A DNA stretch of 37,380 nt from Bacteroidales bacterium (GTDB lineage Bacteria; Bacteroidota; Bacteroidia; Bacteroidales; GCA-2711565): positions 1-37,380 of the forward strand of contig JANQLW010000040.1 in assembly GCA_028280405.1 (NCBI GenBank), given 5' to 3'. A program made the translations under genes and the position numbers. This document shows, piece by piece, positions 2,534 to 34,456 of the stretch (position 1 is the stretch's first letter; each line of letters begins with the position of its first letter). The notes under the pieces are model-generated. The model saw only the letters and a program-made list of their open reading frames with translations, was not told where the DNA came from and made no database searches.

Positions 2534-3976
2534 TTATTTTGCAGTCATTTCAATAAGATTATTTGCTTCCCCAAGCCAACAAGATTCATGATTACAATAT
2601 TGAAAAATAGTATTTACATTAATCTTATATTTTTTCCCTTTTACAGCATTAGAAGGAGTTTTAATGTAAGCTCTGAAATGAATCTGTTTCTTATAAACAG
2701 GTAATTCAAATTCACCTTGCTTTTTTATTGTGGGTTCTGGCCAATTGCAAGAAATAAGTTCAAATCCTTCTGGGAGTTCCCAGTTCATTTCTGTGTTTTT
2801 ATAGCCTTCACCTTCTTTAATACCATAGGTATGATATCCGTCTTTTATAGTAAGGCTAATCATTATTCGTTTATCTTCTCCGGGGGTGAAAGTTTCACCT
2901 CCATATGGGCTGATCCTATATTTTACTTCATCAGTGCCTGAAATATATTTTTGAGATTGTTTAATTCTAAATTCCCTCATTTTTTTCATATTCTCTTCAG
3001 TACTGAGTTCAGGATCCCAACCCTGAGACAACCACTCTTTTTCTTCATGTAAAGGAGCCCGGGCCTCACCGAACATTATCTCAACAGGGAATTCTATTTT
3101 ATGAACTTTTGCAGGGGACTTTGAGTTCTTTTGTAAAGAAATTTGCATTTTAGCTTTACCGGCTTTTGCATCTATTGGAATAAAGACCATTCCAAAATAC
3201 CTGTAACTTCAGCAACGCATATTAAGTTTGCTAATGTATTCTTTATTTTTTCCTCGTTTATCGATATATTTCAGGCTGGCAATAAGGCTTTCATTTTGGG
3301 GAACGAATGAAATATCAACAAACCATTTGGAACCATTAGTGCCCTTTCTTCCTATATTATAAGCTATTTTATTAAGGTAATAATCTTTATAAGGCGCATT
3401 TTTTAATTCTCCCATTCCTTCATAAAACTCATAGTTTTTTAAAGCAACATCACCTTTATAAAAATTCAGGGCTTGTTCAAATCCAATATATAATTTTCCT
3501 GCATTTTCAGGTGAGCTCCCTGTATTTAAAAAGGCATAAGACATATATTCATTTACTTTAAGGTGTAATTGTATTTCCGCCTGATTATTTTTAGTCGCTT
3601 TTACAAATGCTAATATCTTTGTTGTTTCTCCTGTAGCCGGATTTTTACAATCATTGATTTCATAAGCACCTCCAAAGAGTGTTACATCCCGGTCTGTTCT
3701 TTCTCCTGCTTCTCCTATAATACCATTGGCATTTTTATCAATATACAATACATCAAAAGTTTTTGATTGTTTTGATTTAAAATCTGCAATCAGCCATATA
3801 GCTTTGTTAGCTTTTTTCCCAAACAACAAAACTCCATAAACAGCTTTATCACTAAATTGCCGGCCCGAAGCTGGTTTAATTTTGGGATTTATTCTATTGT
3901 AATTAACTTTTTGCTTACTATTGACTGTATTGGCCAAAGTAAAAAGCATAACTATAATTAAAACGATTCTATTCAT
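2534..3976 (-). CDS. Predicted exported selenoprotein, Cys-Sec motif plus DsbD-N-like domain (TGA = Sec at 3211-3209)
   Basis: One 480-residue protein read through an in-frame TGA. Residues 1-21 are a signal peptide (MNRIVLIIVMLFTLANTVNS). Residues about 25-250 form an unrecognised beta-rich domain. The TGA is residue 256, directly after Cys255 (MRC-U-SYRYFG). The frame then continues without a break to TAA at 2536-2534. Residues about 360-480 resemble the N-terminal periplasmic domain of DsbD (DKRIMISLTIKDGYHTYG), ending in a Cys pair, C461 and C466 (QYCNHESCW), the spacing used by that domain to pass electrons. A SECIS-like hairpin (3175-3195) lies just after the TGA. It is the last gene of import operon 3. 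I infer a periplasmic redox role. The alternative is two genes or a pseudogene, but the downstream half has neither a signal peptide nor a good start of its own. Confidence 0.8.
3175..3195 (-). promoter_or_regulatory. SECIS-like hairpin of the DsbD-N-like selenoprotein gene
   Basis: On the coding strand TTGGAAT pairs perfectly with ATTCCAA around the loop GGTCTTT. The loop starts 20 nt after the TGA and its first base is G. This fits the general bacterial SECIS layout: a short stem-loop inside the coding region just after UGA, with a G at the head of the apical loop, recognised by SelB. Confidence 0.7.
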
Positions 3977-3980
3977 ATTT

Positions 3981-4214
3981 TTATTTTTTTATACTAACCC
4001 ACACCATTCCGGCTCCGGTTTGTTTTGGTTTTAAACTCCATAATTTTGATGAAATTTCCATTCGCTCTTCATTTAGCTTCTTGAATTCATCTATTTTCTG
4101 CAGATACTCATACATTTTTTTATTCTCTTCACTATTCGTTACTTTCCCATTTTTCTTTTCGTATGATTTGTATAAAACATCCAATTGGGTACTTACCTGC
4201 TTGCCAGCAGACAA
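3981..4214 (-). CDS. Small uncertain ORF upstream of the selenoprotein gene
   Basis: A 77-codon frame with a Lys/Glu-rich, probably helical middle (KKMYEYLQKIDEFKKLNEER) and the end GAGMVWVSIKK. It stops 4 nt before the ATG of the selenoprotein gene, as expected for translational coupling. The start is unclear: only TTG at 4214 or internal ATGs are available, and upstream the frame meets a TGA at 4271-4269. No signal peptide, no recognised family. It lies after the terminator at 4289-4318. It may be a real small gene or the remnant of a longer one. Confidence 0.4.
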   Translation of the reverse strand: MSAGKQVSTQLDVLYKSYEKKNGKVTNSEENKKMYEYLQKIDEFKKLNEERMEISSKLWSLKPKQTGAGMVWVSIKK

Positions 4215-4288
4215 GGAATACGCATGCTTATATTCACCACTTTTGGTATGCGATCCTTTATGCGTATTTCATAACAATATAATAAATA

Positions 4289-4318
4289 CTAAGCCTGACA
4301 AAAGCGAGGCAGGCTTAG
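4289..4318 (-). terminator. Terminator after the PKD-like lipoprotein gene
   Basis: A perfect 9-bp stem, CTAAGCCTG / CAGGCTTAG, has a 12-nt loop and is followed on the minus strand by TATTTATTATATT. It sits 25 nt past the PKD-like gene. It would cut or reduce transcription before the small ORF and the selenoprotein gene, so these may be expressed at a lower level or from their own promoter. Confidence 0.65.
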
Positions 4319-4342
4319 CATTTTATTATTTCGTTTAAGCAA

Positions 4343-5890
4343 TTAATAATGCATCTTATGACGATGCAATGCGGGGGAGATATAGTAGACATGGCCTACT
4401 TTTCCTTCCCCTTCGTATATTATCGGGTTAGGTTTGGGCTTACCTGCAAGCATATCAAATAAGTAAACTTTATAATTTGTTCCATCATAAGTTGCTACAA
4501 CTAATTTATCAAAAGAATATTCTTCTGCATCAGGTTCATCATGAACCCGATGATGTATATGTGTAATTTCCTCTCCAGTTGTGAAATTATGGATCACTTC
4601 CTCTGCCTGTGACGAAAGGTTAAAAGCACTTAGTTTATTCGCATTTGAATAATACAATAAATTTAGGCGTTTATTTACAGCATAATGCTTTGCATTTTCG
4701 ATTTCCATTCCTTGAGGAATTGTATCTAAGGCATATACAGGGTTTTTATTTTGTCCAAAATATCCGGCTGCATACAATTCAAGCCTTGCTATAACCAAAC
4801 GTTTTACGGCATCCCGTGTTTTTAAAAGAGCAATACCGTCTCCATCATCTTTATATCCGCCAAATTTATAATCCATAAACAGGTTATCCGCATTCAGATT
4901 TTTATGAGGATAATAGGTTTTAGTTGTATCGTTTCCTTCATCTGTGAATGGAGTTAAATAACTTGTACTAAAATAATGTAAGCCATAAAAAGTTCCTTTT
5001 AAATTGTCATACACTATTGGATTGTTTTGAGGATTATTAGGAGGTAGAATATGAGGAGCCAGGCTATAATCATATTCTGTTCTATATTCATAACCAAACT
5101 TACCCGAATTACCATATATAAATACACCATGTGCCTTATTATTCGTAACAAGGAAATCACCATATCCATTTATTGTCCAAGCCTGTGGTTTTGGATCAGC
5201 ATACGGACCATAGAATATATCTTTGAATTTATCCAATACTTTTGCATCTGACATTCTCATTCTCGCAATATCCTTATCAGTTAAAAGATAAACCACCCGT
5301 ATCATTCTGTTCAATTCATTTTTTTCAGGATCAAACCAGTTTGCCCTGTCGTTAAATCCGATTTGAACGGCTTCTCCGTCGAGTTTTTCTCCTGCATTTT
5401 CACTATAAACATTTTCTCCTTTACCATGTTCATTAAAAATGTCAAGATCAGATTTTCCATTCTGGCTTTTCAGTACATACCAACCCCTGGATGACATACT
5501 TTCAACCACCAGCTCTGAAGAATTAATGGTTTCAATCTCTGTTTTAAGATCCTTTACGATAAGTACTAATTTGTATGTGCCCGGTTTAAAATTAATTTTT
5601 AAATCCAGGTTCTTTTCCATTCCAAGGGTATCAAGCTTATATTCATCAGGATCAGCAGTTACCAACATGAACTTTCCCCACAAATAACTTAACTCTTTAC
5701 CTTCTGCATTTTTTATTTCCGGTTTGAGATTAATCTCATCAGCAAAAGCAACAACTTTATACTTTTCCTGTATATTCTCAATTGTTACCTGGCCGTATTC
5801 TGCACTTACATCTGTTGTTTTATCTTTATAACAAGATGTTAATAACAGAACCAGCATTCCTAAATATATTATATTAATTTGTGTTTTCAT
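4343..5890 (-). CDS. PKD-like family lipoprotein of a SusCD operon
   Basis: A 515-residue outer-membrane lipoprotein. The lipobox is at LLLTSCYKDK (Cys20). Residues about 35-130 form a PKD-like beta-sandwich (YKVVAFADEINLKPEI ... SYLWGKF), joined through SSRGWYVLKSQNGKSDLDIF to a beta-propeller-like C-terminal region. This is the arrangement of the PKD-like lipoproteins that follow SusD and DUF4843 genes in many Bacteroidota operons. It begins 12 nt after the DUF4843 gene. Probable role: surface ligand binding with the SusCD pair; ligand unknown. The His-rich tail (HRHKMHY) is notable but its meaning is unclear. Confidence 0.75.
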   Translation of the reverse strand: MKTQINIIYLGMLVLLLTSCYKDKTTDVSAEYGQVTIENIQEKYKVVAFADEINLKPEIKNAEGKELSYLWGKFMLVTADPDEYKLDTLGMEKNLDLKINFKPGTYKLVLIVKDLKTEIETINSSELVVESMSSRGWYVLKSQNGKSDLDIFNEHGKGENVYSENAGEKLDGEAVQIGFNDRANWFDPEKNELNRMIRVVYLLTDKDIARMRMSDAKVLDKFKDIFYGPYADPKPQAWTINGYGDFLVTNNKAHGVFIYGNSGKFGYEYRTEYDYSLAPHILPPNNPQNNPIVYDNLKGTFYGLHYFSTSYLTPFTDEGNDTTKTYYPHKNLNADNLFMDYKFGGYKDDGDGIALLKTRDAVKRLVIARLELYAAGYFGQNKNPVYALDTIPQGMEIENAKHYAVNKRLNLLYYSNANKLSAFNLSSQAEEVIHNFTTGEEITHIHHRVHDEPDAEEYSFDKLVVATYDGTNYKVYLFDMLAGKPKPNPIIYEGEGKVGHVYYISPALHRHKMHY

Positions 5891-5902: not shown

Positions 5903-6667
5903 TTAAACAAATTGAACTAAATCACCTATCGTTTGCCCTTCTTTAGGTTCTTCCCTCAATGGATTATCAGGATGGGCATCATTATACTCTCTAAGCTTAT
6001 CTTTAAAAAGCGTCATATAAAAATTTCTCAGGGTAGCGTTCCTCACAAAGCCTTCCAAAAATTTATCATCTATTTTAAGGCCTGTAACATCAATCATAAA
6101 GCGGTGCTTTACAGGGCCATATGCACCCAAGTACCATTTAGCCAAGTAACCGCCCCATCTATCCCAATAGCTTGGTTTCTCCAATTTATCTGAAAAAACA
6201 ATTGTCCTGACAAGGTTAGTAGATTCACCCAATTTAAAATCTCCGCTTTCAAGTAACCTCACTTTCAAGGTAAAGGACTTCTTTTTCAGGATATCATGCC
6301 TGTACAATACAATGGGAAGCTTAACTGATCCTGAATCTGCCTTTATCATCAGATGTTTGCTAAACTCCGGATCTGTAAAAGCCAGAAAATGCTCACCTGC
6401 CACAGCGACATTCACATTCCCTGTATCAATCACTTGTTCAATTTTAATTTGTCTGTCTTTTTTAACATTGCGGCCAACAATCTGAACATATAAATGAACA
6501 GTATCTTTCAGTACTGAAGGCGGATCATAAATAAAACTTTTTGCTTGCAATGTATCTCCTGAGAACTGTAGCCAGGCATCATTGCCAAAAGCTTCTATCT
6601 CTTTTTGTTCGCATGAAGCAAACATACCGATTATAATAAATAGGAATATATATTTTATTGTTTTCAT
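5903..6667 (-). CDS. DUF4843 lipoprotein
   Basis: A 254-residue lipoprotein. The start is set at the ATG opening MKTIKYIFLFIIIG, 13 nt after the SusD stop, giving a lipoprotein signal with lipid Cys in MFASCEQKE. The body carries DUF4843 features: an early WLQFSGDT strand, a central calcium-sheet-like beta region, and the YLGAYGPVKHRF block near residue 200. DUF4843 proteins lie between SusD and PKD-like genes in Bacteroidota and are thought to be accessory surface proteins. A longer in-frame start overlaps SusD and is not favoured. Confidence 0.75.
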   Translation of the reverse strand: MKTIKYIFLFIIIGMFASCEQKEIEAFGNDAWLQFSGDTLQAKSFIYDPPSVLKDTVHLYVQIVGRNVKKDRQIKIEQVIDTGNVNVAVAGEHFLAFTDPEFSKHLMIKADSGSVKLPIVLYRHDILKKKSFTLKVRLLESGDFKLGESTNLVRTIVFSDKLEKPSYWDRWGGYLAKWYLGAYGPVKHRFMIDVTGLKIDDKFLEGFVRNATLRNFYMTLFKDKLREYNDAHPDNPLREEPKEGQTIGDLVQFV

Positions 6668-6680
6668 AATAAATTCATCT

Positions 6681-8111
6681 TTAGTTTGATAAAATTTCAG
6701 AATCCGGTAATGGTATAACATATGCTTTTTCATCCACTTCTCCGTTTACCCATAGCATATTGCTTATTCCTAAACGCTTATAGGTATAAAACATCTGGCC
6801 TTCAGCATAAAATTCTCTTCTGAATTCTTTTACAATGGTGTTTAATCTATCCAATTCATCTGTAAAGCTCAAGGGAGCATTATCCCTGGCAGCTCTAAAT
6901 GTTTTATAATACTCATTTGCCTCAGCTAATGGTGTAGTTTCCATAACAATCATATAAAGCTCAGACAAACGAATTAATGGGATCACTTCTTTATTTTCAA
7001 AATCGACACCATCCTGCTGCCAGTATTTTTTAATCGAAAATTTTGAGTCTCCATGACTAGAAACAACTGTAGTCCACATTTCAACAAAACGAACATCTGT
7101 ATCCAGATTTTCAAAAACATCATCTAAAACATCATTTCGTTCTTTATTCAAAGAACCGCTTTCAAAAAGCCTTTCAGATATTTTACTTAAATCGAATTTG
7201 TGCAGTCCAAACAAATGCTCTGAACCGAGCGTATATTTTTTCAGGGCAAAATCATTGGGACCTCCTAATTCAAACTTCAAGCTGCCATCTGTATTTTTTG
7301 CTTCAATTACCATTTTGGCATAATTGGTAGCATTAACCTTATCCTGCATCCAAAGATAAAAGCGGGCTTTTAGTCCAAGAACTGCATAATAATTCATTCT
7401 GAATTTCCGGTATGCCCTGAATGTATCCGTAGGTTTATATTCTCCTGAGCTTGGATCATTAACATCACTCATACTATAATCTTTTACAGGATCTACTTTA
7501 TTAAGCAATTCTTCTGCTTTATTTAAGTCATCTAGTAACGCATTTGTAAACTCTGTATAACTTAACCTTTGATGAGGTTCTTTTGATATAGTTGTAACAT
7601 AAGGTAATGTAATTGAATTATCCATTTTTGTAGGCATAGGCCCAAACAAACGAAGAATATCCAAATGACAATATGCTCTAAGTGCAAGAGCCTCACCTTT
7701 TACCAATTCATAATTAATCCCATCAAAAACATCTTTTTTGGCATCAATTTGCTCAAGGATTGCATTTAAGTGTGAAATGATATTATACACCGATAAATAA
7801 ATACTGGAAAATCTGCTTTTGACTGTAGCATCTTTATAATCATGATTATTTAGTGCCATTTCCGCAGTTCCAATAGTAGTTTCCCAATGAGCCACCAAAT
7901 GTTCAACAGTTGTAAATGTTAACCGGTCTCCATAAGCACTATAGTCACCCAGTTTAATATATACACCGGCAATGGCATCTTTAAAGCCATTCTCAGTTTC
8001 AAATACCATATCTCTTCTGATCTGCGTTCTTGGCTGCACATTTAACCAATCATTACAGGCTGAAAGAGAAATACAGCAAAATATTATTGTATAAAAAATT
8101 ATTTTTTTCAT
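6681..8111 (-). CDS. SusD/RagB-like outer-membrane lipoprotein, operon 3
   Basis: A 476-residue substrate-binding lid protein for the TonB-dependent channel encoded 17 nt upstream. Lipid Cys is in CISLSACNDWLNVQPRTQ, the common SusD opening. TPR-like helices follow (VKGEALALRAYCHLDILRLFG, the typical first TPR helix) and the C-terminal SusD region includes IPLIRLSELYMIVMET. Complete at both ends, TAA stop. The operon partners (DUF4843, PKD-like) are more usual for RagAB-like peptide importers than for polysaccharide loci, which is family context rather than proof. Confidence 0.9.
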   Translation of the reverse strand: MKKIIFYTIIFCCISLSACNDWLNVQPRTQIRRDMVFETENGFKDAIAGVYIKLGDYSAYGDRLTFTTVEHLVAHWETTIGTAEMALNNHDYKDATVKSRFSSIYLSVYNIISHLNAILEQIDAKKDVFDGINYELVKGEALALRAYCHLDILRLFGPMPTKMDNSITLPYVTTISKEPHQRLSYTEFTNALLDDLNKAEELLNKVDPVKDYSMSDVNDPSSGEYKPTDTFRAYRKFRMNYYAVLGLKARFYLWMQDKVNATNYAKMVIEAKNTDGSLKFELGGPNDFALKKYTLGSEHLFGLHKFDLSKISERLFESGSLNKERNDVLDDVFENLDTDVRFVEMWTTVVSSHGDSKFSIKKYWQQDGVDFENKEVIPLIRLSELYMIVMETTPLAEANEYYKTFRAARDNAPLSFTDELDRLNTIVKEFRREFYAEGQMFYTYKRLGISNMLWVNGEVDEKAYVIPLPDSEILSN

Positions 8112-8128
8112 GATACTAAATTTTTAAA

Positions 8129-11100
8129 TTAGAAAATGGCTAGAACCTTAAATGAAACACTTCTTGAAAATGGATAAGCCAACCCTCTTTCTCTTTTAAT
8201 TGTAGACAAATAGAATAAATTCGCAGAATTACATGAGAATTTCAACTGTCGGATTCCCCTGCTTTTCAACCAATCATTTTGAAGTTTGTAGCTAAGTTCA
8301 GCAGATTGCAATTGAAAAATGGCTTCATCCTGAACAAATCTGGATGAATAATATGTTTCTGCATACTTATCTCTAATGTCTTTAAAGAAGGCAATGTCTC
8401 CTTGTTTTCTCCAGCTACTTTCATATACCCTTCTGTCTACATTATACAACAAATCAGCATTTTCAACCCGGTCAATTAAGGTTTGATTATACTTTTGCCC
8501 ACCCCAGGAATATCCAAAAGCAAGATTTAATTCAAAGTTTTTAAAACGCATATAGGAAGTCATGGTACCCCTGTATTTCGGTTCACTTATTCCGGCAAAT
8601 ACCCTGTCTCTGGCATCCCATGTATATGTAATCTCTCCCTTTCTGTTCATAAATACTTCATTCCCTGTATTCGGGTCAATTCCTAAAGAAGGAACAACAT
8701 AAATTGCATTAATAGGATCTCCTTCAAACAGCAAATTATTTGGAACTGAAGTCACACGGTTCATTACATTCTTATTCTGCTGTTTTATTGCATCTGAGAG
8801 CTTAACAATTTTACTCTTATTGTGTGCAATACGGGTTCTGACCAACCAGTAGAAATCTTTTTTATTAATCAGATTTACACCCAGCATTAATTCAAATCCC
8901 TTATTTTCAACTGCACCTATATTTTCTGTATAGGAAGGAAAACCATTTGACAAAGGAATATCTATTTGAGACAACAGGTTTGAGGTTTTTTTAAGATAAA
9001 AATCAGCACTAAACTGAATCTTACCTTCAAATAATTCCGTATCAAAACCAAGATTGTATTGTTTTGTTTTTTGCCATTCCAAATCTTCATTTCCCAAACC
9101 AAGTAAAGCAAGCCCCCTTAAATCAAGATATCTACTACTTGTATAATACTGATAAGTTGAAAGAGCCTGGTAAGCACTAAATTGCTGTGAACCCGTTACT
9201 CCATATGAAGCTTTTAATTTGAACCTTTTTATAAACGTTATCGAATTAAACCATGCTTCCTTATGCAGGTTCCATCCTGCCCCTACCGACCAGAAAGGAG
9301 CAAACCTTTTATTTGTTCCGAATTGAGAAGATCCATCAATACGGTAAGAAAAATCAACAAAATAGCGATCATCATAACTATAGTTCATATTTCCTGTAAA
9401 TCCCACACTTCGGGTGTTAGTTTCACCACCTGAAGGTTTTCCGTCCTTTAAATATTGTAAGCCCATAGTGAGAAAGTCAAGACTTTCGTGAGCAAAGCCT
9501 TCTATAGTGAAGTTATAAAACTTACTTGATCTTTCAGTCATACCATAATCCAATCCAATATATACCTGATGCTTATCTGCAAAAATCTTAGAGTAGGAAA
9601 TGGTCGTATTCAAATCCCAGTTAAAGTCTTCACCTGTACCATATCTGTACATACCTTTTCTGAATAAATCTTCACCTTTGTAGTTTTCAAACATTGTGTG
9701 TTGCGCAGGAAGGAAGAAATCCGAATCTCTTTCTACCAATGACAAGCCCACCTTTGTTCTGAATGTTAACCCATCCATTATTTTCCATTCAACAGAAAAA
9801 TTATTTACAATATCCTTGTAATTATTGGAATTAACGGTATTTAAAGTAGCATTATATAATGGGTTAGAGGGATATTCTTTATTTTTAAAGAACTCATCAA
9901 AAGTATCCAGGAATCGTTTCATATTTCCGTTTTCATCATAAGGGGTCCAGTATGGATTAAGTGGTACATAGTCACTAAAACTCCCGTACGGGCTTTCATT
10001 CCCCTTATTTAAACCTATTGAAAGTTGATTTCTAAATACCAGGTTATGATGATAATAAGCTAAACTAATAGAACCATTAAATGCTCTTTTATTTGAGCCT
10101 TTCATGACTCCATTTATTTCGTTATAATCAATAGTAGCAGCATATCTGAATTTAGAATCACCACCTTCCAGTCTAAAATTATGTCTTTGTCCGACACCGG
10201 TTCTTAAAGGCTTTGACAACCAGTCTGTACTCACACCTTCTGTTGTTTGCTTTAGCAGTTTACTGTATCTTTCTCTAAGCATAAGATCCAGCATTGCCAG
10301 TGGAGTGTCATAATAACCGGCAGCTTTTTCCAATTCCAGTTTTTCTCTGGCATTTAACAATTTATAACCACTTAAATCCGGAACTTCAATTGTAACTTTT
10401 GAATTATAAGTTAGTTTAAGTTTCCCAGCCTCAGGCTCTTTTCTGGTAATTACAACAACTCCGTTTGCTCCTCGGGAACCATAAATTGCCGTGGCACTTG
10501 CATCTTTTAATAAGGTAATGCTTGCTAACTCCTCATCATTTAAAGTTGTTAATTTTTCAAGCGAAATTTCAAACCCATCTAATATTATTAAGGGAGTATT
10601 TATGTGAGCTTTCGTATTATTTTGTAATTCTTGAACAGTTGGTAAACTGGAAGTACCCCTAATATTAATTTCAGGTAATCTGTTAGGATCCGAACCATAT
10701 ATATTACTTTCAACAATATTAAATGATGGATCAATGTTTTTTAAGGTTGAAATTACGTTTCGAGTTCCAAACTTTTCTAACTCATCTTTACCTATAGTCG
10801 TTACAGAGCCTGTATAAGTTTCCACTTTTTTCTTAAACATACCTGTAATTACAACCTCTTCCAAACTTTCAGCAGACTCCTCAAGCACAACCTTAATTTC
10901 AGTTCTATTTCCAACTGGAATAGTTTGAGTTTTAAATCCAATATAGCTTACTTTTATTTTTGATGCTGAACTGGTAACTTTTAATGTAAAATTACCTTCT
11001 TTATTAGTTGTCACACCATTTAAAGTTCCCTCTTCCAAAACGGTAGCACCAGGTAAAGGGTTCCCCTCTGAATCTGTAACTTTACCTTTAATTTCTATAC

Positions 11101-11485
11101 TTTCTAATTCTACATAGTTATCAATAGCTTCAGATTTCATTATGATTACAGTATTTTCATTTACTGTATAATCCAACCCATTTTCTTTCAAACATTTATC
11201 TAATACATTTTCCAGAGTTTCATTTTCAACTGTCAAATTTACACCTTGAATATTTTCAATATCATCAGAGCTATATAAAAACGTAAAGGCCGTTTGCTTA
11301 TTAAGCTGCCAGATAATGCTTTCCAAACTTGCATTACTAACTTGAAGATCAACAGTCGTTTGTAAACTTAAGGGATTAGCCTGAAGCATGCCAAACAAGA
11401 TAAATGTAAAAAGTGATCCCATAATCCATTTTGGTTTTAACAAGTTTCTTATCAGATAAGAAACTCGTTTTGATTTTTTTTTCAT
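8129..11485 (-). CDS. SusC/RagA-like TonB-dependent transporter with STN domain, operon 3
   Basis: An outer-membrane channel of about 1,118 residues. The start is the ATG before KKKSKRVSY, preceded by the conserved leader shared with operon 2. Order: signal anchor (about 25-45), STN domain (about 50-125; FTFLYSSDDI ... ENTVIIMKS), carboxypeptidase-regulatory-like domain (IKGKVTDSEGNPLPGATVLE), TonB plug with TLLKDASATAIYGSRGANG, then the 22-strand barrel. The STN domain is the part that contacts the FecR-like anti-sigma factor, so transport and transcription are linked. The plug variant VVITGMFKKKVETYTGS matches SusC proteins found with DUF4843/PKD-like lipoproteins. Confidence 0.93.
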   Translation of the reverse strand: MKKKSKRVSYLIRNLLKPKWIMGSLFTFILFGMLQANPLSLQTTVDLQVSNASLESIIWQLNKQTAFTFLYSSDDIENIQGVNLTVENETLENVLDKCLKENGLDYTVNENTVIIMKSEAIDNYVELESIEIKGKVTDSEGNPLPGATVLEEGTLNGVTTNKEGNFTLKVTSSASKIKVSYIGFKTQTIPVGNRTEIKVVLEESAESLEEVVITGMFKKKVETYTGSVTTIGKDELEKFGTRNVISTLKNIDPSFNIVESNIYGSDPNRLPEINIRGTSSLPTVQELQNNTKAHINTPLIILDGFEISLEKLTTLNDEELASITLLKDASATAIYGSRGANGVVVITRKEPEAGKLKLTYNSKVTIEVPDLSGYKLLNAREKLELEKAAGYYDTPLAMLDLMLRERYSKLLKQTTEGVSTDWLSKPLRTGVGQRHNFRLEGGDSKFRYAATIDYNEINGVMKGSNKRAFNGSISLAYYHHNLVFRNQLSIGLNKGNESPYGSFSDYVPLNPYWTPYDENGNMKRFLDTFDEFFKNKEYPSNPLYNATLNTVNSNNYKDIVNNFSVEWKIMDGLTFRTKVGLSLVERDSDFFLPAQHTMFENYKGEDLFRKGMYRYGTGEDFNWDLNTTISYSKIFADKHQVYIGLDYGMTERSSKFYNFTIEGFAHESLDFLTMGLQYLKDGKPSGGETNTRSVGFTGNMNYSYDDRYFVDFSYRIDGSSQFGTNKRFAPFWSVGAGWNLHKEAWFNSITFIKRFKLKASYGVTGSQQFSAYQALSTYQYYTSSRYLDLRGLALLGLGNEDLEWQKTKQYNLGFDTELFEGKIQFSADFYLKKTSNLLSQIDIPLSNGFPSYTENIGAVENKGFELMLGVNLINKKDFYWLVRTRIAHNKSKIVKLSDAIKQQNKNVMNRVTSVPNNLLFEGDPINAIYVVPSLGIDPNTGNEVFMNRKGEITYTWDARDRVFAGISEPKYRGTMTSYMRFKNFELNLAFGYSWGGQKYNQTLIDRVENADLLYNVDRRVYESSWRKQGDIAFFKDIRDKYAETYYSSRFVQDEAIFQLQSAELSYKLQNDWLKSRGIRQLKFSCNSANLFYLSTIKRERGLAYPFSRSVSFKVLAIF

Positions 11486-11504
11486 AATTTTGAAATTAGT
11501 TAAC

Positions 11505-11567
11505 AATAAGGGTTTCTATTCATTTAGGTACTCTTATTAAAAGCAGAGGATGTGTCCGCATTCTCTG
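11505..11567 (-). promoter_or_regulatory. Structured leader between anti-sigma and susC genes, operon 3
   Basis: Two hairpins precede the susC start: CAGAGAATG / CATCCTCTG (11544-11567, 8 of 9 pairs) and AATAAG / CTTATT (11505-11538). Sequence and structure recur at the same place in operon 2, with compensating changes in the second stem. Likely an attenuator, processing site or sRNA target that sets SusC levels relative to FecR. Confidence 0.5.
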
Positions 11568-11578: not shown

Positions 11579-12784
11579 CTAATTATTTTTAGTAATCAGT
11601 ATATAGTTTTTATCCATTTCAATTTTTACTTTTTCTGTTAGTTCAATAAAGTTTAACAGACTGTTTAATTCAGAATATTTATAAAGACTTCCCCCAAATC
11701 TTAAGCTTTTCAATGATTCATACTCATAGAAGACTTCAATATTATACCATCTGCTTAAAGTTTGCATAATTACATCCAATCGTTCATCTTTAAATACAAA
11801 CCTTCCTTTTTTCCAGGCAGAATAGATACTGGCATCCACTTCACTGATTTCAATTTTATCTGGATTTTTATTGTCTATCCTAGCTTGTTGGTTTGGTTTT
11901 AAAACAATAACTTCATTTTTATCCGAAAGGTTTGTAATCTGCAAGCTACCGGTTTCCAGGGTAAAAATAGATTCCCTGGCATCTTTGTAACAAGATACAT
12001 TAAATGAAGTACCTAAAACCTCTAATTCAGCCCCATTTGTTTTTACAATAAATGACTTTTCTTGGTTTTCTGCCACTTCGAAAAAAGCTTCACCTTCCAG
12101 AACTTCAACGATTCTTTTATCACCAATGAATTTTACAGGGTACTTAATGTTTGATAAGGAGTTTGCAAAAATCTTAGAACCATCAGAGAGTATTACCGAA
12201 TAATCGCCACCACCTCTTGGTGTTATCATATGGTTGTATACAATCTCTTCCTTTCCATGAATAATTGAGCTATCCTGATAGTTAATGGTAGTATTTAGCT
12301 TTTTAATTTTCCTACCGCCCAGTTCCTGAATTACGGTATTTTCATTTACAGATAATCTATGCTTACTTCCATCTCCCAGTACCAACATGGCTTTAGGACT
12401 TCCTATTACAATTTCTTCTGTTCCCATTCCTTCAATGGACATTTTCTCATCCAGAGTTAAATAGTACATTGTAGCAGAGGTGGCTAAAACGATAATAAAA
12501 ATTGCAGCATACTTCATAAATTTTCTAAACAGTATTCGTTTTGCCAACATTGTATTTCCAGTAGTTTTTATTTTCTGTAATGCATATATATAATCTATTT
12601 CCTCTACATTTCTCTTGTATGCATAACGATTCTCTTTATCAAGGATCTTATTGTAAAGCAGTAGATTATCATCACTTTCGGATTTCCAGGATTCCAGTTC
12701 CTTAGCTTCAGATTCACTTAAGTCATTACTCAAGTAACGAGATATTAAACTTGAATAGTAAATATAGGATGGTGCGTTATTCAT
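11579..12784 (-). CDS. FecR-like anti-sigma factor, operon 3
   Basis: A 401-residue inner-membrane regulator. A cytoplasmic N-terminal region (ISRYLSNDLSESEAKELESWK, the usual FecR anti-sigma helix pair) is followed by one membrane segment (about 90-110, YAAIFIIVLATSATMYYL). The periplasmic FecR domain includes TPRGGGDYSVILSDGS and VEVLEGEAFFEVA, and a C-terminal DUF4974/secretin-like segment (ERLDVIMQTLSRWYNIEVFYE) follows. It would hold the sigma factor at 12904-13464 and release it when the STN domain of the SusC protein signals substrate. TAG stop. Confidence 0.9.
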   Translation of the reverse strand: MNNAPSYIYYSSLISRYLSNDLSESEAKELESWKSESDDNLLLYNKILDKENRYAYKRNVEEIDYIYALQKIKTTGNTMLAKRILFRKFMKYAAIFIIVLATSATMYYLTLDEKMSIEGMGTEEIVIGSPKAMLVLGDGSKHRLSVNENTVIQELGGRKIKKLNTTINYQDSSIIHGKEEIVYNHMITPRGGGDYSVILSDGSKIFANSLSNIKYPVKFIGDKRIVEVLEGEAFFEVAENQEKSFIVKTNGAELEVLGTSFNVSCYKDARESIFTLETGSLQITNLSDKNEVIVLKPNQQARIDNKNPDKIEISEVDASIYSAWKKGRFVFKDERLDVIMQTLSRWYNIEVFYEYESLKSLRFGGSLYKYSELNSLLNFIELTEKVKIEMDKNYILITKNN

Positions 12785-12903: not shown

Positions 12904-13464
12904 TTATGAATTCAATATTTTGAGAAGAAAAAGGATTGCAAGTTTATGTTCCTTTAATAGCTCTCTAAGGCGTTGATAACTTTTTAGTTTAGAAGACTTA
13001 ACTGTATTAATAGATACATTCAGTTCTTCAGCTATCTGTGGATTAGATAATCCATTTAAGCTTAACTCAATAATTTCTTTACTTCTTTCAGGAAGGGAAT
13101 TGATTGCTTCATATAAAATCCTGTAAGTTTCCTGCTCCATTAAGGTATCCTTAAAAAACATTTCTTTTTCATGTTTTTTAGCATTCCGAAACTTATTTTT
13201 AACTTTATTATGTTTCAGATAATTATGGCAACTATTTTTGGTAAGGGTATATAAGTATGCTTTTATATTATCAAATTTCCGGAGTGTTTTGTCATCTAAA
13301 TAAACTTTTAGAAATACATCCTGACAAACATCTTCTGCAGTTTCTATATCCGAAACATATTTTTGAGCAAAAACAACCAATGTAGGGTAGAAGCTTTCAA
13401 AAAAATTATCGAAAGCTGAATCATCTGATTTGGAAACCAAATTAGCGCTATTAAACTTAGACAT
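12904..13464 (-). CDS. ECF sigma factor (FecI/RpoE-like), operon 3
   Basis: A 186-residue sigma-70 family protein. Region 2 is visible in FESFYPTLVVFAQKYV ... AEDVCQDVFLKVY and the tract IKAYLYTLTKNSCHNYLKH. Region 4 helix-turn-helix is LPERSKEIIELSLNGLSNPQ followed by EELNVSINTVKSSK. The pairing with the FecR-like gene downstream shows cell-surface signalling control of the SusCD operon. It keeps the normal size for Bacteroidota ECF sigma factors. The closest relative in the window is the operon 2 sigma factor. Confidence 0.92.
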   Translation of the reverse strand: MSKFNSANLVSKSDDSAFDNFFESFYPTLVVFAQKYVSDIETAEDVCQDVFLKVYLDDKTLRKFDNIKAYLYTLTKNSCHNYLKHNKVKNKFRNAKKHEKEMFFKDTLMEQETYRILYEAINSLPERSKEIIELSLNGLSNPQIAEELNVSINTVKSSKLKSYQRLRELLKEHKLAILFLLKILNS

Positions 13465-13692: not shown

Positions 13693-15162
13693 TTACTTTT
13701 TATAAATATTTATATAATTTTTACATCCTCCCTGTTCCGAAAAAAACAAGCGGTCTTTGTTTTTAGTATACCAGTTATTCCATTCCTCATAGGTATTAAA
13801 AGATACTGTGGTATAACGTTTAAGCAATACAAGAGCGAGTTCTTTTTTGGTATGATCATTTAATGCATCAATGCAGTAAGGGATAAAATCTTCATCATAA
13901 AAACTTTTACCTAATTTTTTTGCCTCCATATCCACAATAAAATTTCTGGGATATTTTGGATCTGCTCTCAAATAATTAGCATTCTCATTATAGAAATCTG
14001 AATATTTTTCAAGATCGGTACCAAGCTTTGAAAATAAAGATTTCTCATACCTATTTAAGTATTCCTCAAGGGTATATGGTTTTCTGATTTTATGATTTAA
14101 CGCCCTTTTCTCTTTCTCAGTAAGATCCTCACCTGTCTTAACTTTTTCCCTGGCAGTTTTTTGTGCAGCTAAAGCTCTTTGATAATAAGCATTGGAAGAC
14201 TTTTGATACTCTTCCCATTTCTTTTTAAAATCTTTATTTACTTTCTTTTTTAATTGATCTCTAAACCACATTGTCCCGGAAAGCTTAGGAGATAAAGGCC
14301 TTTTTCCTTTAAACTTTGCAATATAATGTATGGCATTCAGGAAAACCAATTTCCCTTGTTTTGTCATATGTTTTGGTCCTCCGGAAAATCCCCAGTGAAG
14401 AAAATTCCCATGACGGCCTATGGCTATTTGTCCAGACCTCTTTGTATGGTTTCCTTCCGAAATAAACTCTGCATCCGGTGCATCTAAAAATCCTTTTCCT
14501 CTGCTCACAAGCCCGGCTCCTAAAACGGAACCTTTCTTATATCCCATTGTTTGAACTTTCCACATTTTCATTGTTTCCCCTATATCCTTTTTATATTTAC
14601 GGAAATTTTTAGGAGTTTCAACATCTTCCCATATTAAGTTCACTTTATATGGTGTATTAAAAATTTCGTGTTCCTCTTTTGTAAATAATCCATATTTACC
14701 AAGGCAAAGTCAGCACCAATCCAGTTTATGCTTAACACTATATCGTGTTCTTTCGGTCATCGTATTTAAAGTAATTGCTGCAGCTGAGAAATCCTCCGGA
14801 ATATAATGTTCATATTCAAACTTTGTATAATTTCCATCAGCATCCTTCTCCGTTACTCGGCCTTTTATTTTTTTAGGCATTGCATCGAAAACAGTTACAT
14901 CATAGCCTTCCGACATTTTCGAGTTATAATCCCAATGATGCACCATTTTAACACTTTTGAAATATGTATTGAGAAATTTTTTAAAATCAGACCAGCGAAG
15001 TTTTTTTTCCTCAAAAACTGCTTTAGATCCATATCCTTTTCTTATATGTTGCTCCGGATGTTCCGGATTCCAACCTACATACAATACACTCAATTTACTT
15101 TTCGCAGCATAAGAAGAGGAAATAATGAGTATGGTAATTATTAATAAAAGTATTTTCTTCAT
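13693..15162 (-). CDS. Predicted exported selenoprotein, ThuA/GATase-like with W-C-U-L-C motif (TGA = Sec at 14712-14710)
   Basis: A 489-residue protein read through an in-frame TGA. Residues 1-19 are a signal peptide (MKKILLLIITILIISSSYA). Residues about 22-270 look like the ThuA / class I glutamine-amidotransferase-like fold: an opening LSVLYVGWNPEHPEQHI, a strand GYDVTVFDA, then LDW-C150-U151-L-C153-LGKYG, and finally GRHGNFLHWGFSGGP ... LFLNAIHYIAKF, the ThuA-like closing block. LCLGKYG sits where GATase enzymes have their nucleophile elbow. The C-terminal 200 residues are helical and end in EEWNNWYTKNKDRLFFSEQG. The frame after TGA is uninterrupted to TAA, and the downstream half has no signal peptide. 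SECIS-like hairpin at 14679-14702. Last gene of operon 2. Reaction unknown; a selenol-based redox or binding role is inferred. Confidence 0.8.
14679..14702 (-). promoter_or_regulatory. SECIS-like hairpin of the ThuA/GATase-like selenoprotein gene
   Basis: On the coding strand GTAAATA pairs perfectly with TATTTAC around TGGAT; two further T-A pairs form below a one-base G bulge. The loop starts 17 nt after the TGA and G is its second base. Placement and shape match the other two SECIS-like hairpins in the window. Confidence 0.7.
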
Positions 15163-21248: not shown

Positions 21249-22451
21249 CTAATCATTTTTCGTAAACAGTATATAGTTTTTATCTGTTTCTATTTTTACT
21301 TTTTTCGTCATACTGATCAAATCCAATAGAGAATTGATATCCGAATACTTATTCAGGTTCCCTCCAAAACGAATGGATTTCAAGGATTCAAACTCATAGA
21401 ATACTTCAATATTATACCATCTGCTTAAAGTCTTCATGATTACATCCAGGCGTTCATTTTTAAATTCGAACATTCCTCTTCTCCAGGAAGAATAGATTCC
21501 TGCATCCACTTCTGATATTTCCATTGCTCCAGGCTTGTTATTGTTAATTCTCGCCTGTTGATCAGGAGTTAAGATCTTGACTTCGTTATTATGCTTTAAG
21601 TTGATCACCTCTAGTAATCCGGTTTCCAAAGTAATAATTAATTCATTGGAACTACTATAAGCAGATACATTAAAGGATGTACCTAATACTTTTAATCGGG
21701 CATTTTTTGTTTTCACGATAAAAGGCATGGTTTTATTCTCCACGACTTCAATAAAAGCTTCACCTTCCAGAATTTCCACTTCACGATAATCTCCTGAGAA
21801 TTTTACCGGATATTTAACTTTAGACATAGAATTCACATACAATTTACTACTGTCTGAAAGTACTACCGAGTAATCTCCCCCCCCTCTGGGTGTAACTATG
21901 GTATTATACAGATTTTTGATTTTGGTAAATCTGATAGAACTATCTAAATAATTGATCGTATTATGAGCAGTTTTAATTTTTAATTCTCCTTTCTCCAGAA
22001 GAATTTTTTGAGCAGTTTGTTGTAAATTATGACTCTGCCCATCATCCAAAATTAATTGAGCCTGGGGTTTGCCTGTAACGATCTCAGCCGTACCCATTCC
22101 TTTGATGGACATTTTTTCTTTATAAAAAACAGTATAATAAAGAGTAGCTGTTAGGCCAATTAAAATAAGTAAAGTAGCTGCAAATTTCATAAAGCCTTTA
22201 AATCTATCAATTCTAAATTTGTTGGAATTAATTGAATGGGATACTTTATTCCAGGCTTGATCAGCATCAACCAGACTTATCGCTTTCTTATACGCATCAC
22301 GGTTTTGCTCATTAAGAATCTTAATAAATAAATGGGGGTTCTCATTCTTCCAAACTTCCAAATCTTTAAATTCTTCTTCAGATAAAGAATCCTGACTGAA
22401 GTACCGAGCTAAAAGCCGTGAAAAATAAAAATATGTACTGGTGCTTTCCAT
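21249..22451 (-). CDS. FecR-like anti-sigma factor, operon 2
   Basis: A 400-residue paralogue of the operon 3 anti-sigma factor. N-terminal anti-sigma helices (LLARYFSQDSLSEEEFKDLE), one membrane segment (about 85-108, FAATLLILIGLTATLYYTVF), periplasmic FecR domain (TPRGGGDYSVVLSDSSKLYV, VEILEGEAFIEVV) and the C-terminal segment ERLDVIMKTLSRWYNIEVF. The C-terminal part is the surface expected to meet the STN domain of SusC. Confidence 0.9.
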   Translation of the reverse strand: MESTSTYFYFSRLLARYFSQDSLSEEEFKDLEVWKNENPHLFIKILNEQNRDAYKKAISLVDADQAWNKVSHSINSNKFRIDRFKGFMKFAATLLILIGLTATLYYTVFYKEKMSIKGMGTAEIVTGKPQAQLILDDGQSHNLQQTAQKILLEKGELKIKTAHNTINYLDSSIRFTKIKNLYNTIVTPRGGGDYSVVLSDSSKLYVNSMSKVKYPVKFSGDYREVEILEGEAFIEVVENKTMPFIVKTKNARLKVLGTSFNVSAYSSSNELIITLETGLLEVINLKHNNEVKILTPDQQARINNNKPGAMEISEVDAGIYSSWRRGMFEFKNERLDVIMKTLSRWYNIEVFYEFESLKSIRFGGNLNKYSDINSLLDLISMTKKVKIETDKNYILFTKND

Positions 22452-22521: not shown

Positions 22522-23082
22522 TTAGGAATTTAGAATACTCAGGAATAGTAAAATTGCCAGTTTATGTTCTTTAAGCAACTCTCTGAGTTTCCTATAAGTT
22601 CTGTTTTTCAATGTCTTAACTGTATTTAGCGAAATATCCAGTTCTTCAGCTATTTCAGGATTAGTCATATCATTTAAACTTAACTCAATAATTTTTTTGC
22701 TTCTTTTAGGCAGCGTATCTATAGCCTGATATAACATTCTATAAGTTTCTTGTTCAATGATAGTATCTCTAAAAAAATTGTCATCTTTACCTGGTTGCAA
22801 TTTTTTATATTTCTCTTCTACCTTTGCATGCTTAACATAATTCAGGCAGGAATTTTTCGTAAGCGTATAAATAAAAGCTTTTAAATTATCAATACTTTTA
22901 AAACTATTATCAGATTCATAAGCCTTAATAAAAGCATCCTGACAGATGTCTTCGGCTATTTCCTTCTCTACTACATATTTTTGAGCAAACACAACAATAG
23001 TAGGGTAAAAACGTTCAAAGAACTCTTTAAATGTTAATTTTTCCCCTTTTAAAAGCTCAAATATTTTAAAAGAATTGTGCAT
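22522..23082 (-). CDS. ECF sigma factor (FecI/RpoE-like), operon 2
   Basis: A 186-residue sigma factor, the same length as the operon 3 one. Region 2 is FERFYPTIVVFAQKYV ... AEDICQDAFIKAY; region 4 is LPKRSKKIIELSLNDMTNPE followed by EELDISLNTVKTLK. Both end in LLKEHKLAIL.F...LNS, showing they are recent paralogues. Confidence 0.92.
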   Translation of the reverse strand: MHNSFKIFELLKGEKLTFKEFFERFYPTIVVFAQKYVVEKEIAEDICQDAFIKAYESDNSFKSIDNLKAFIYTLTKNSCLNYVKHAKVEEKYKKLQPGKDDNFFRDTIIEQETYRMLYQAIDTLPKRSKKIIELSLNDMTNPEIAEELDISLNTVKTLKNRTYRKLRELLKEHKLAILLFLSILNS

Positions 23083-32160: not shown

Positions 32161-32203
32161 AAAAAAAACCGAAGCTCAGTGAAAACACAAGAAAGAGCTC
32201 CGG
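32161..32203 (-). terminator. Strong terminator after the LolA-like gene
   Basis: On the minus strand CCGGAGCTC pairs with GAGCTTCGG (9 pairs, one a wobble) around a 17-nt loop, followed by eight T residues. It separates the selenoprotein/LolA-like unit from operon 1. The rest of 31915-32160 shows no gene; a 65-codon plus-strand frame across 32100-32297 is not convincing. Confidence 0.8.
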
Positions 32204-32222
32204 GAAAATCATGGTACAAACC

Positions 32223-32273
32223 AAAATTTATTCATTTAATCTAAAGCTATACAATGAAATTTTGCATTCGATT
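32223..32273 (-). repeat. Repeated 3' untranslated element, copy 2
   Basis: Partner of positions 23228-23277, sharing AAAATTTATT and CTATACAATGAAAT in plus-strand reading. It starts 8 nt past the LolA-like stop and runs to the terminator, exactly as copy 1 precedes the operon 1 terminator. Confidence 0.5.
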
Positions 32274-32280
32274 AAATATT

Positions 32281-33009
32281 CTATTCTTCAAACTTAATTG
32301 AAGATTGATCAACTTTTGCATTTAATTCATATTTATCAACTAGTATTTTATATGTTTGTTCATTGATAATTATCGTTGATTTAAAGTGTAGTTTTAGCCC
32401 ATCAACATCTTTGTAATCACTATAATAAACATACATGATCGCATCAAATGAACCACGGATGTATTCCAGCTCTTCTGCAACAATCATATATGTTTCCTTA
32501 CTTATATATATAATGATGATATCATCCACCATCTCCCCATGCTTCGGCTTTTTGCCACGGTTTATTTCCAGTACATAGCATTCTTCACCCTGGATATTGT
32601 CATCTTCAAGCAGTTCAATTTTATATCCTTTTTCTTTATAATTAATCAGGTAAGATTTAAAGTCTTCATTACTTTTTTTAGCCCTGGTAGCTCTTTCTTT
32701 ATTAGACTTCTTTAGTCCTTTATCAGAACTTCTTTTCCAGTAATTTGTTCCGTCAAATCCAAATTCAATCTCATGTTTTCCTTCTATTTCCCTGGTTCCA
32801 TATGAAAAACCTTTTGTTACGAATGTTTCTATATCCGTTAATCCACGTGCATTACTTAGCTTGCCATACATTTTAATGGATTCAACTTTATCCCAGTTTT
32901 GAATTCCCCCTATCTTTTCAATGTGTTTTTGAATTATTTCTTCCGCTGTTTGAGCACTTATTATCCCTGCAATAAGGCTAAATAATAATATGATTGTAAT
33001 TTTTTTCAT
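32281..33009 (-). CDS. LolA-like periplasmic lipoprotein-sorting family protein
   Basis: A 242-residue exported protein with a signal peptide (MKKITIILLFSLIAGIISAQ) and no lipobox. The opening AEEIIQKHIEKIGGIQNWDK and the half-barrel strands after it follow the pattern of LolA-like / outer-membrane lipoprotein-sorting proteins common in Bacteroidota. It starts about 58 nt after the TlpA-like selenoprotein gene and shares its terminator, so the two are probably cotranscribed. A true LolA role is not shown; many such proteins bind unknown lipids or hydrophobic ligands. Confidence 0.65.
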   Translation of the reverse strand: MKKITIILLFSLIAGIISAQTAEEIIQKHIEKIGGIQNWDKVESIKMYGKLSNARGLTDIETFVTKGFSYGTREIEGKHEIEFGFDGTNYWKRSSDKGLKKSNKERATRAKKSNEDFKSYLINYKEKGYKIELLEDDNIQGEECYVLEINRGKKPKHGEMVDDIIIIYISKETYMIVAEELEYIRGSFDAIMYVYYSDYKDVDGLKLHFKSTIIINEQTYKILVDKYELNAKVDQSSIKFEE

Positions 33010-33067
33010 TTTTCTGTTTTTTTTTAATCAATAAATTGCCTGCAATATTTTTAAGTTTTCTTAATTA

Positions 33068-34456
33068 TCATTTAGAATCCCTCACAACGATCACTTTCAT
33101 AGGTTTCTTTCCTTTTTTAAGAACAATTCCCTGGTCCTGCAAAGCCTTTTTAAGTTCTTCAAAGTTTCTAAGGTTTCCTTTTAACTCAATATCAAATTCA
33201 TTATTTATGCCTGTCTTATCAATAAACGGAGGTTCATTTCTATTGCTTCGCTGAAGCATTTTAATCAAATCCGTGATCCTTGCATTTTTGATACTTGTCA
33301 CAAAAGAATCATTTGTACGAATACTATATGTATTACCCGGATTTTCTGCCTTTAAGCTTTTCTTTGCCTTTTTTGTTGCCGTTAATATCCAACAGGGCAT
33401 TTTACGAATCTCCACATTGACATCATATTTAAAATATGTTTTCATGTCCCGTTGGATAATTTCCTGCAATGATCCGGCACTTAGTTTTTCAGGAACAATC
33501 AAACTATAGTTCCAACGGTTGTCAGGTTTTTTATACTCAAATTCAAAAGGAGTTTTATCTCCTATTTCCAGAATTAACTCCGGCCAGGATTTGCCATAGC
33601 TATTAATCTTTTCGCCAGGCCTGTTAGAAATGGTATCTCCATAAGCCAGGTGATAAAGATAGGATAAATCAGCACCTACCTCCTGTACCATCTTACGATT
33701 ACCAAGCATAAACTGACTTCTACCCGCTTTAATGTCCCCTTTATATTTAGCAAGCAATGATCGGTACATATAGGCCGTATCATGGCCCCCGTTTCCATAA
33801 TGTAATAAGGGACGGGTTCTGTCGTAAACAGTATTCTTTGCCTCTTTTTCACGAGCTGCTTTTATTAACTCTTCCAATGAATGCTTCTCATTGACTACAT
33901 CATCCAGTAAACTCAGGAACTCTTCTGAAGCACTCCCGATATAAACAATACGGCCCAACTTGTCAACCAAAAATAGTTTCGGGACACCTTTTTCTCCAGA
34001 GGCATTTTGCCATGCCTTTTTTATCGTTTGATTTGCATCATCCACTGCTACAGTATATTTCATACGATTGGATCTTTCATTTACATATTTTTCAACACCC
34101 TCAAAATGCATTTGCTCCTGTTTTTCCATGGGAACTCCTCCCAAAAATCCCATGACAAATACACTGATCACATTCACTTTTCCCCGGTATTTTCTGGACA
34201 GCTTTGTTAAGAATGGAACCATTCTATGACATCCACCTCACCAGGTAGCTCCAAATTCAACCACATGCACTTTCCCTTTTTCCAACTCTGTCATTGATTT
34301 GCCCTTGAGCCATTTTGCTGCCTTGATCGGTGGTGCCTGGTCTCCTACTCTCAGAGTGATCTTTTGCGCATTTAAATCCACGGTACCAAATAGGATAACC
34401 AGCATTGCAATCAAAGTGATTACGCTTCGTTGTTTTTGTTTTATTGTCTGTTTCAT
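33068..34456 (-). CDS. Predicted exported selenoprotein, TlpA-like thioredoxin with U-G-G-C active site plus DUF3738-like domain (TGA = Sec at 34240-34238)
   Basis: A 462-residue protein read through an in-frame TGA. Residues 1-31 are a signal peptide (IAMLVILFGTVDLNAQ). Residues about 35-195 are a TlpA/thioredoxin-like domain: VGDQAPPI, VHVVEFGATW-U73-G-G-C76-HRMVPFL, and cis-Pro159 in EKGVPKLFLVD. The TGA takes the place of the first active-site Cys of CxxC. Residues about 240-460 resemble DUF3738 (PPFIDKTGINNEFDIELKG ... LKKALQDQGIVLK). The frame after TGA is open to TGA-TAA at 33070-33065. SECIS-like hairpin at 34210-34225. Likely a periplasmic thiol-disulfide oxidoreductase with a more reactive selenol. 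The downstream part alone would be a thioredoxin without its active site, which argues against two genes. Confidence 0.85.
34210..34225 (-). promoter_or_regulatory. SECIS-like hairpin of the TlpA-like selenoprotein gene
   Basis: On the coding strand AGAATG pairs perfectly with CATTCT around GTTC (a seventh G-C pair is possible). The loop begins 18 nt after the TGA and its first base is G. Same layout as the hairpins at 14679-14702 and 3175-3195. Confidence 0.72.

Follow-up and report, generated by a model that had tools for sequence, protein, structure and literature searches.

What do single in-frame TGA codons do in three genes for exported proteins of a Bacteroidales bacterium? The window analysed here is the whole of contig C22 (JANQLW010000040.1; 37,380 bases), part of a 3.87-Mb draft genome in 91 contigs that is 95% complete, and three minus-strand open reading frames (ORFs), each with one internal TGA, appear in it once TGA is translated as selenocysteine (Sec; U denotes Sec read at TGA): A1 (P0001), B1 (P0002) and C1 (P0003), the last of which also terminates in TGA. 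A sequence-only reading of the window had proposed three exported proteins, each with one in-frame TGA inside a Cys redox motif and open frame on either side; this is borne out by the ORFs themselves, by hexamer scoring, with 152 long ORFs as the training set, which gives positive values on both sides of the TGA in all three genes, and by their signal sequences. Judging from the sequence evidence set out below, A1, B1, C1 and related TGA genes are almost certainly selenoprotein genes. They belong to a predicted set of at least 43, nearly all with export signals and mostly located behind SusC/SusD (SusCD) genes, and the products are proposed to be periplasmic selenol reductases acting on imported material, an account that we hold, taken as a whole, to be slightly more likely than not.

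The four genes of Sec insertion whose presence the sequence-only reading had named as a check are all found: selA (538.6 bits) and selB (368.6 bits) on contig C91 and selD (443.2 bits) on C51, each above its curated cut-off, and tRNA-Sec on C91 (60.2 bits against a gathering score of 47; anticodon TCA by ARAGORN). selD itself carries one TGA, in HGAGUGCK. We infer that SelB inserts Sec at these TGAs. SelA is above cut-off in 3 of 41 genomes searched, the present genome being one of the three, and selA in none of five same-genus genomes (two 99-100% complete, three 68-87%). The sel locus (C91:38000-57900, L023) also holds, by reading, what we take to be a transglutaminase-like gene and genes for a YedE-like transporter, a TusA-like and a cysteine-desulfurase-like protein, and presumably DUF3343-like, radical S-adenosylmethionine and substrate-binding genes; selB adjoins a sigma/FecR/SusC operon.

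Relatives keep Cys or Sec at the TGA position, which was another check on the sequence-only reading. Cys occupies the site in 116 of 116 aligned B1 homologues (among the best 120 of 181 found, the remaining four being pieces that start after the site) and in 59 of 59 aligned C1 homologues (64 found, of which 5 stop short of the site), and the same genome encodes two DWLCNC relatives of B1 (37-38% identical) and a Cys paralogue of C1 with WCGGC (75% identical to C1 residues 2-209). Among 148 relatives there are no TGA copies of B1 or C1 and no copies of RCU, the family to which A1 belongs. Three C1 homologues on other contigs (P0126, P0127 and P0130) stop short of the TGA position and are perhaps cut selenoprotein genes.

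RCU relatives carry Sec. All seven full-length copies in the genome have a single TGA, and it falls at RCU in every one; three further partial rows of the search cover only the DsbD_N part and are uninformative on the RCU site, and two more MRCU pattern matches (L181:3876-3971 and L062:17153-17599) were dropped as chance. RCU matches occur in 3 of 11 other genomes, two spanning the site, both with TGA, in ERCUGMLCHGP, and the third consisting of the DsbD_N part only, so that TGA stands at the site in all nine copies that cover it (seven own and two from other genomes). A search of 5.8 billion proteins found no homologues of A1, probably because the halves cut at the TGA lie outside the search's length limits, and a scan of contigs from 84,980 species with the RCU alignment was unproductive, its patterns sitting in the DsbD_N part, which is absent from the two relatives named above.

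The TGA genes number 43 on 19 contigs (7 RCU, 4 WCULC including B1, 11 thioredoxin-like, 20 FG-GAP UC and 1 selD), a lower bound because only these five groups were sought. FG-GAP propeller proteins with a U-C motif, the fourth group, emerged when stretches of sequence were screened; seven of them then served as queries against the genome, which yielded 20 full-length copies, all with U-C and a single internal TGA, plus one fragment, and the four UC proteins scanned contain FG-GAP repeats (PF13517). The genome search for thioredoxins gave 34 matches, 11 with TGA, in every case within a WUxxC motif; two thioredoxin-like copies that were scanned have a Thioredoxin_2 domain with WUGPC. At C74:17534-17947 (L093) an FG-GAP UC fragment with a TGA and a TAG, lying behind a SusCD operon, is likely a decaying copy.

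The FG-GAP UC group extends beyond this genome. Scanning the same 84,980-species contig set with the 20 full-length FG-GAP proteins as queries, using scan patterns that excluded the U site, gave at least 136 relatives, from which 80 loci were kept. Among the matches listed, 28 rows align at the Sec site and 11 of these, from 11 other genomes, have U-C: one Bacteroidales, five Planctomycetota, one Chthonomonadaceae, Candidatus Sabulitectum, Candidatus Aegiribacteria and two labelled uncultured bacterium. The remaining 17 were judged ordinary FG-GAP proteins, one of which (L151) has Cys in the Sec column without the U-C motif. selA is above cut-off in 10 of the 11 U-C genomes, the eleventh having a selA end piece; among nine genomes whose FG-GAP proteins are of the other kind, it is above cut-off in four. 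FG-GAP UC loci in Candidatus Sabulitectum, Candidatus Aegiribacteria, Chthonomonadaceae and Planctomycetota include L101, L176, L099 and L104.

The 47 bases after the TGA fold to a mean of -10.0 (21 TGAs) as against -5.2 for 1,596 in-gene control positions. By limits published for the bacterial Sec insertion sequence (SECIS), namely energy of at most -7.5, G in the first two loop positions and a loop 16-37 nt from the UGA (PMC13188914), 22 of 36 TGA genes pass, compared with 13 of 275 control positions. A SECIS-like hairpin does follow each of the three TGAs: A1, B1 and C1 all have the stem, the loop G and the distance from the UGA, but the energy limit is reached by A1 only. The FG-GAP genes show almost no variation in the codons CCA CAG TTT GTG: all 20 copies share the Q and V codons, and 18 of 20 share the P codon. 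Of 31 sequences drawn from 12 genomes, 25 keep all five pairs of the stem and 6 do not, where random synonymous codons would give 1.8 complete stems, a rough figure from a model without codon bias. At one pair position of this stem, 26 sequences have A-T, 2 have G-C, 1 has G-T and 2 have no pair; at another, 30 have C-G and 1 has T-A, the protein changing from PQFVD to LQFAD in the T-A case with the stem kept; and at the loop, 26 have an A-T pair and 5 have none. On comparison of these sequences, the FG-GAP hairpin is maintained through synonymous codons and paired changes.

Could the TGAs instead be errors, pseudogene lesions or sense codons of a reassigned code? Individual copies do show damage, since the FG-GAP copy on C74 is a fragment with a TAG and a redoxin gene on C63 carries an extra TAA, but we give this explanation a very small probability in view of the full sel gene set, the single internal TGA per gene at one motif, the TGA at the same site in other phyla and the covarying hairpin. 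A reassigned code was rejected because TGA also terminates genes here and occurs just once within the frame of each protein. Sequencing error and pseudogenes were rejected because Cys or Sec is kept at the site in relatives, the same site recurs in other phyla and the hairpin covaries; sequencing error in particular is strongly disfavoured by 43 TGA genes on 19 contigs together with Sec orthologues in other phyla. Of the outcomes that the sequence-only reading had named as refuting it, none has come about. A mixed assembly is unlikely: a sample of 27 contigs, some carrying Sec genes and some not, shows a GC content of 0.32-0.38 and a tetranucleotide correlation to the mean of at least 0.98, with the exception of five short non-Sec contig samples (0.948-0.963).

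The sequence-only reading had tied exported selenoproteins to SusCD systems in a Bacteroidota and had made A1 and B1 the last genes of operons encoding an extracytoplasmic function (ECF) sigma factor, anti-sigma factor, SusC and SusD. The operon parts read in the window agree, and the tie proves to have been understated, as it is genome-wide. The genome has 55 SusD loci (57 rows, two dropped as pieces of listed genes), and 32 of 42 Sec genes lie within 10 kb downstream of a same-strand SusD, over 20 SusD genes; C69 is absent from the 42, and by coordinates it too stands behind a SusD. The expected share, from zone cover of strand positions, is 6.3% (binomial 3e-30, or 7e-21 at a doubled rate, in a test that assumes independence between genes, an assumption that tandem copies violate). 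Of the ten misses, six (four genes of C61, one of C63 and C1 itself) are no more than 10 kb from a contig end on their upstream side, so that the operon head may be cut off; the other four are selD, two small thioredoxins and an FG-GAP gene adjoining selB. A typical operon runs from ECF sigma through FecR, SusC, SusD and cargo to the Sec gene. The link between Sec and SusCD belongs to this lineage.

By a simple rule, 41 of 41 Sec proteins (selD left out, C69 outside the 41) have a signal-like N-terminus and no lipobox, and nine cytoplasmic-type controls stay below the limit of the rule. Lack of a lipobox favours the periplasm over the outer surface, and the Sec proteins are predicted to be soluble periplasmic proteins. 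DsbD_N domains in RCU and FG-GAP proteins, and thioredoxin and redoxin domains elsewhere among the Sec proteins, were found by domain scans. For the activity, the sequence-only reading had put forward reduction, thiol exchange or metal handling of imported ligands as candidates. The SusCD pair would bring peptides or other ligands into the periplasm; the Sec/Cys pair (WUxxC, RCU, WCULC or WUC) would reduce a disulfide or other oxidised group in the ligand, forming a selenylsulfide; the Cys-pair domains of DsbD_N type in RCU proteins and some FG-GAP proteins would recharge these centres with electrons through the inner membrane; and selenium would make the reduction fast and over-oxidation easily reversed. 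The cargo of Sec operons speaks for peptide-type ligands: C88 and C90 carry S9 peptidases, C91 has a weak M43 match (22.2 bits against a cut-off of 23), and DUF4369 redoxins are encoded on both C61 and C63. To the reductase role itself we give somewhat less than an even chance.

As a single joint proposal, to which we give rather less than an even chance, these proteins may form a selenium-based arm of nutrient import, a multi-family periplasmic selenoproteome behind 20 SusCD systems with a dedicated selenol reductase for each imported ligand, and RCU and FG-GAP UC may be new selenoprotein families, each orthologue seen carrying Sec and none Cys, which reach several phyla. Several observations weigh against parts of this account: i) the hairpins of B1 (-6.7) and C1 (-7.0) miss the energy limit that A1 (-10.0) passes, and 14 of the 36 TGA genes miss the published limits; ii) none of the 11 other loci listed, the Bacteroidales one included, has a SusCD match close to its FG-GAP gene, and among 10 neighbours of six FG-GAP UC loci elsewhere only CarboxypepD_reg recurs, in two; iii) the window's clear M43 gene sits in an operon without a Sec gene; iv) the 30 operon proteins scanned are mixed (peptidases, redoxins, DUF4465, ATP-binding cassette (ABC) exporters, MutS, lipoproteins) and so imply no single substrate; and v) to our knowledge, FG-GAP and ThuA-like folds, the latter assigned to B1, are not known as disulfide reductases.

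Other roles for the same proteins have to be weighed against ligand reduction. They might protect against oxidation, with peroxides and oxidised groups near the import machinery, and not the imported ligand, as the targets of repair or scavenging: Redoxin/AhpC-TSA and thioredoxin domains occur in Sec proteins and their neighbours, and Sec resists over-oxidation, but the Sec genes follow 20 different SusD genes, and most of these come with sigma and anti-sigma genes of their own, which suggests ligand-specific use, and we think this role unlikely. Metal or metalloid handling, in which vicinal Cys-Sec sites (RCU, UC, CULC) would bind or reduce mercury, copper or tellurite entering with siderophore-like ligands, could draw on the vicinal CU motifs of the metal-linked selenoproteins HgcA, MbdU and SaoL (PMC13188914 Table 1), on the periplasmic thiol protein ScsB at rank 28 among Foldseek matches of a weak RCU model (place of alignment not given), and on a weak SCO1/SenC match beneath a stronger AhpC-TSA match in one C63 Sec-operon redoxin; yet SCO1/SenC apart there is no metal-named Pfam match among the scanned neighbours, where peptidases, redoxins and lipoproteins dominate, and such a function seems quite unlikely. 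The RCU model in question is an AlphaFold model of A1 (Cys for Sec, 7 sequences) that is weak outside the C-terminus, with a predicted local distance difference test score of 65.2 and a predicted template modelling score of 0.42, and its Foldseek list, with integrins at the top, is unused here except for ScsB.

A vitamin B12 role would apply to the WCULC operon and one FG-GAP operon at least, which would import cobamides, with the Sec protein acting on the cobalt ligand. DUF4465, members of which bind vitamin B12 (PMC13398666), is encoded beside B1 and in the L180 operon, and BtuF is a listed selenoprotein (PMC13188914), but DUF4465 occurs in only two of the scanned Sec operons, others having peptidases, and we consider this role improbable.

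The architectures overlap with known systems and depart from them. A1 has a signal sequence, an N-terminal RCU domain without Pfam or NCBIfam match and a C-terminal DsbD_N-like domain (41 bits against a cut-off of 25) with Cys461 and Cys466; it shares DsbD_N (PF11412) and its Cys pair with DsbD, and the periplasmic domain of ScsB is among the matches of its model, but the scan gave DsbD_N only, joined to the unmatched RCU domain, and no membrane or C-terminal thioredoxin domain as in whole DsbD. The TsoB rhodanese/DsbD-like selenoprotein (NF045694) is likewise a Sec protein with DsbD-like parts; two thioredoxin-like copies reach 55.6 and 49.7 bits with this model, against a cut-off of 805, and A1 and B1 do not match it. 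B1, which has no Pfam match at E 0.001, has a signal sequence, a domain of ThuA-like/GATase1-like fold and a helical C-terminus; it differs from other ThuA-like/GATase1-like proteins (PDB 4jqs, 1t0b) in the Sec or Cys of its DW.[CU]LC motif, and many of its Cys homologues, unlike those proteins, are fused to DsbD_N. C1 combines a signal sequence, a Redoxin/thioredoxin domain with WUGGC (PF08534, 46.1 bits against a cut-off of 26.6, with UxxC) and DUF3738, and shares domain and UxxC with the Redoxin family selenoprotein of PMC13188914 Table 1, from which it differs in its fusion to DUF3738, its export and its SusCD/MutS setting. The thioredoxin-like copies share Thioredoxin_2 with WUGPC (two copies scanned) with the thiol:disulfide interchange selenoprotein (PF13098, UxxC; same table), but here all 10 checked of 11 have a signal-like N-terminus and 7 of those 10 stand behind SusD. 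The FG-GAP UC proteins share the repeats of FG-GAP/integrin-type beta-propellers and are set apart by an invariant Sec-Cys pair. The TonB-dependent receptor selenoprotein of FCYXU type (NF049945; same table) is another link between Sec and outer-membrane uptake, although there the receptor itself carries Sec and here separate exported proteins do.

Features of the window (C22)
Feature	Position	Strand	Remark
Selenoprotein A1 (RCU family), 480 aa	2534..3976	-	U256 in MRCUS
A1 SECIS-like hairpin, 8-bp stem, loop GTCTT	3175..3195	-	passes all limits, -10.0
A1 in-frame TGA, Sec256	3209..3211	-	ORF reading
PKD_2 protein, A1 operon	4343..5890	-	domain scan
DUF4843 protein, A1 operon	5903..6733	-	domain scan
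SusD, A1 operon	6681..8111	-	ORF list and genome SusD search
SusC, A1 operon	8129..11506	-	by reading
FecR-like anti-sigma, A1 operon	11579..12784	-	by reading
ECF sigma factor, A1 operon	12904..13464	-	by reading
Selenoprotein B1 (WCULC family), 489 aa	13693..15162	-	U151 in DWCULC
B1 SECIS-like hairpin, 7-bp stem, loop TGGAT	14681..14699	-	-6.7, short of -7.5 limit
B1 in-frame TGA, Sec151	14710..14712	-	ORF reading
DUF4465 protein, B1 operon	15256..16086	-	domain scan
SusD, B1 operon	16127..17686	-	ORF list and genome SusD search
SusC, B1 operon	17693..21154	-	by reading
FecR-like anti-sigma, B1 operon	21249..22451	-	by reading
ECF sigma factor, B1 operon	22522..23082	-	by reading
LolA-like protein downstream of C1	32281..33009	-	26.2 bits, below Pfam cut-off 30
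Selenoprotein C1, 462 aa	33068..34456	-	U73 in WUGGC
C1 SECIS-like hairpin, 6-bp stem, loop GTTC	34210..34225	-	-7.0, short of -7.5 limit
C1 in-frame TGA, Sec73	34238..34240	-	ORF reading
MutS-like ATPase gene pair immediately upstream of C1	34596..37316	-	34596-35924 scanned as MutS_V; other by reading

The placement of C1 just upstream of another SusCD operon, as in the sequence-only reading, probably needs revision. A C1 paralogue on C63 ends a sigma/FecR/SusC/SusD-type operon, behind SusC, SusD and a MutS-like pair (L057:14950-16278 scanned as MutS_V, its partner by reading), and C1, too, has such a pair upstream, beyond which the contig breaks off some 3 kb from C1; it is unlikely that C1 opens the next operon. 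In the paralogue itself (C63:17639-19021, L036) the Sec TGA is followed further on by a TAA, which truncates the C-terminal part. Paired short MutS-like ATPase genes recur beside redoxin or FG-GAP selenoprotein genes, in the window, at L057:14950-17637 and at L181:7726-10385, and an ABC exporter of ABC_transp_aux type adjoins the pair in L057 and L181. Convergent to the RCU gene lies a gene for a small rhodanese-like protein (window 1961-2458, plus strand; 60.4 bits) with a signal-like N-terminus by eye. The second DUF4465 gene in a selenoprotein SusCD operon is at L180:8892-9812.

The 119 prokaryotic selenoprotein families of PMC13188914 (2026) include Redoxin UxxC and PF13098 UxxC and, in the part of that paper available, no FG-GAP, VCBS, DsbD_N-RCU or WCULC family; its selenoprotein-rich bacteria are mainly Thermodesulfobacteriota, Synergistota and Clostridia, and its available text has no word starting "bacteroid". 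The accessible portion of PMC9312934 makes no mention of Bacteroidetes, FG-GAP or DsbD, a table in PMC5029168 includes one single-cell genome of Bacteroidetes, and PMC4807772 deals with other selenoproteins in Planctomycetes. A literature search by title and abstract, mostly without subscription papers, found none describing FG-GAP/VCBS, Planctomycetes, Methylomirabilota or Bacteroidota SusC/TonB selenoprotein groups like these.

A predicted set of 43 in a Bacteroidota is not far from the published records, 46 selenoproteins in Desulfosediminicola (PMC12013277, which also describes a TonB-dependent receptor selenoprotein, a different uptake link) and 57 and 63 selenoprotein genes in the largest bacterial sets of PMC13188914. 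Searches built on Cys homologues would miss FG-GAP UC and RCU, because no Cys form has been seen. Five of the genome's own gene pieces cut at TGA appear as separate proteins in homologue searches, and standard gene calling, which cuts at TGA, can therefore hide a class of SusCD partners. If the predictions are true, selenium is used by this organism in the cell envelope and in nutrient uptake, as nearly all of the 43 proteins would be exported.

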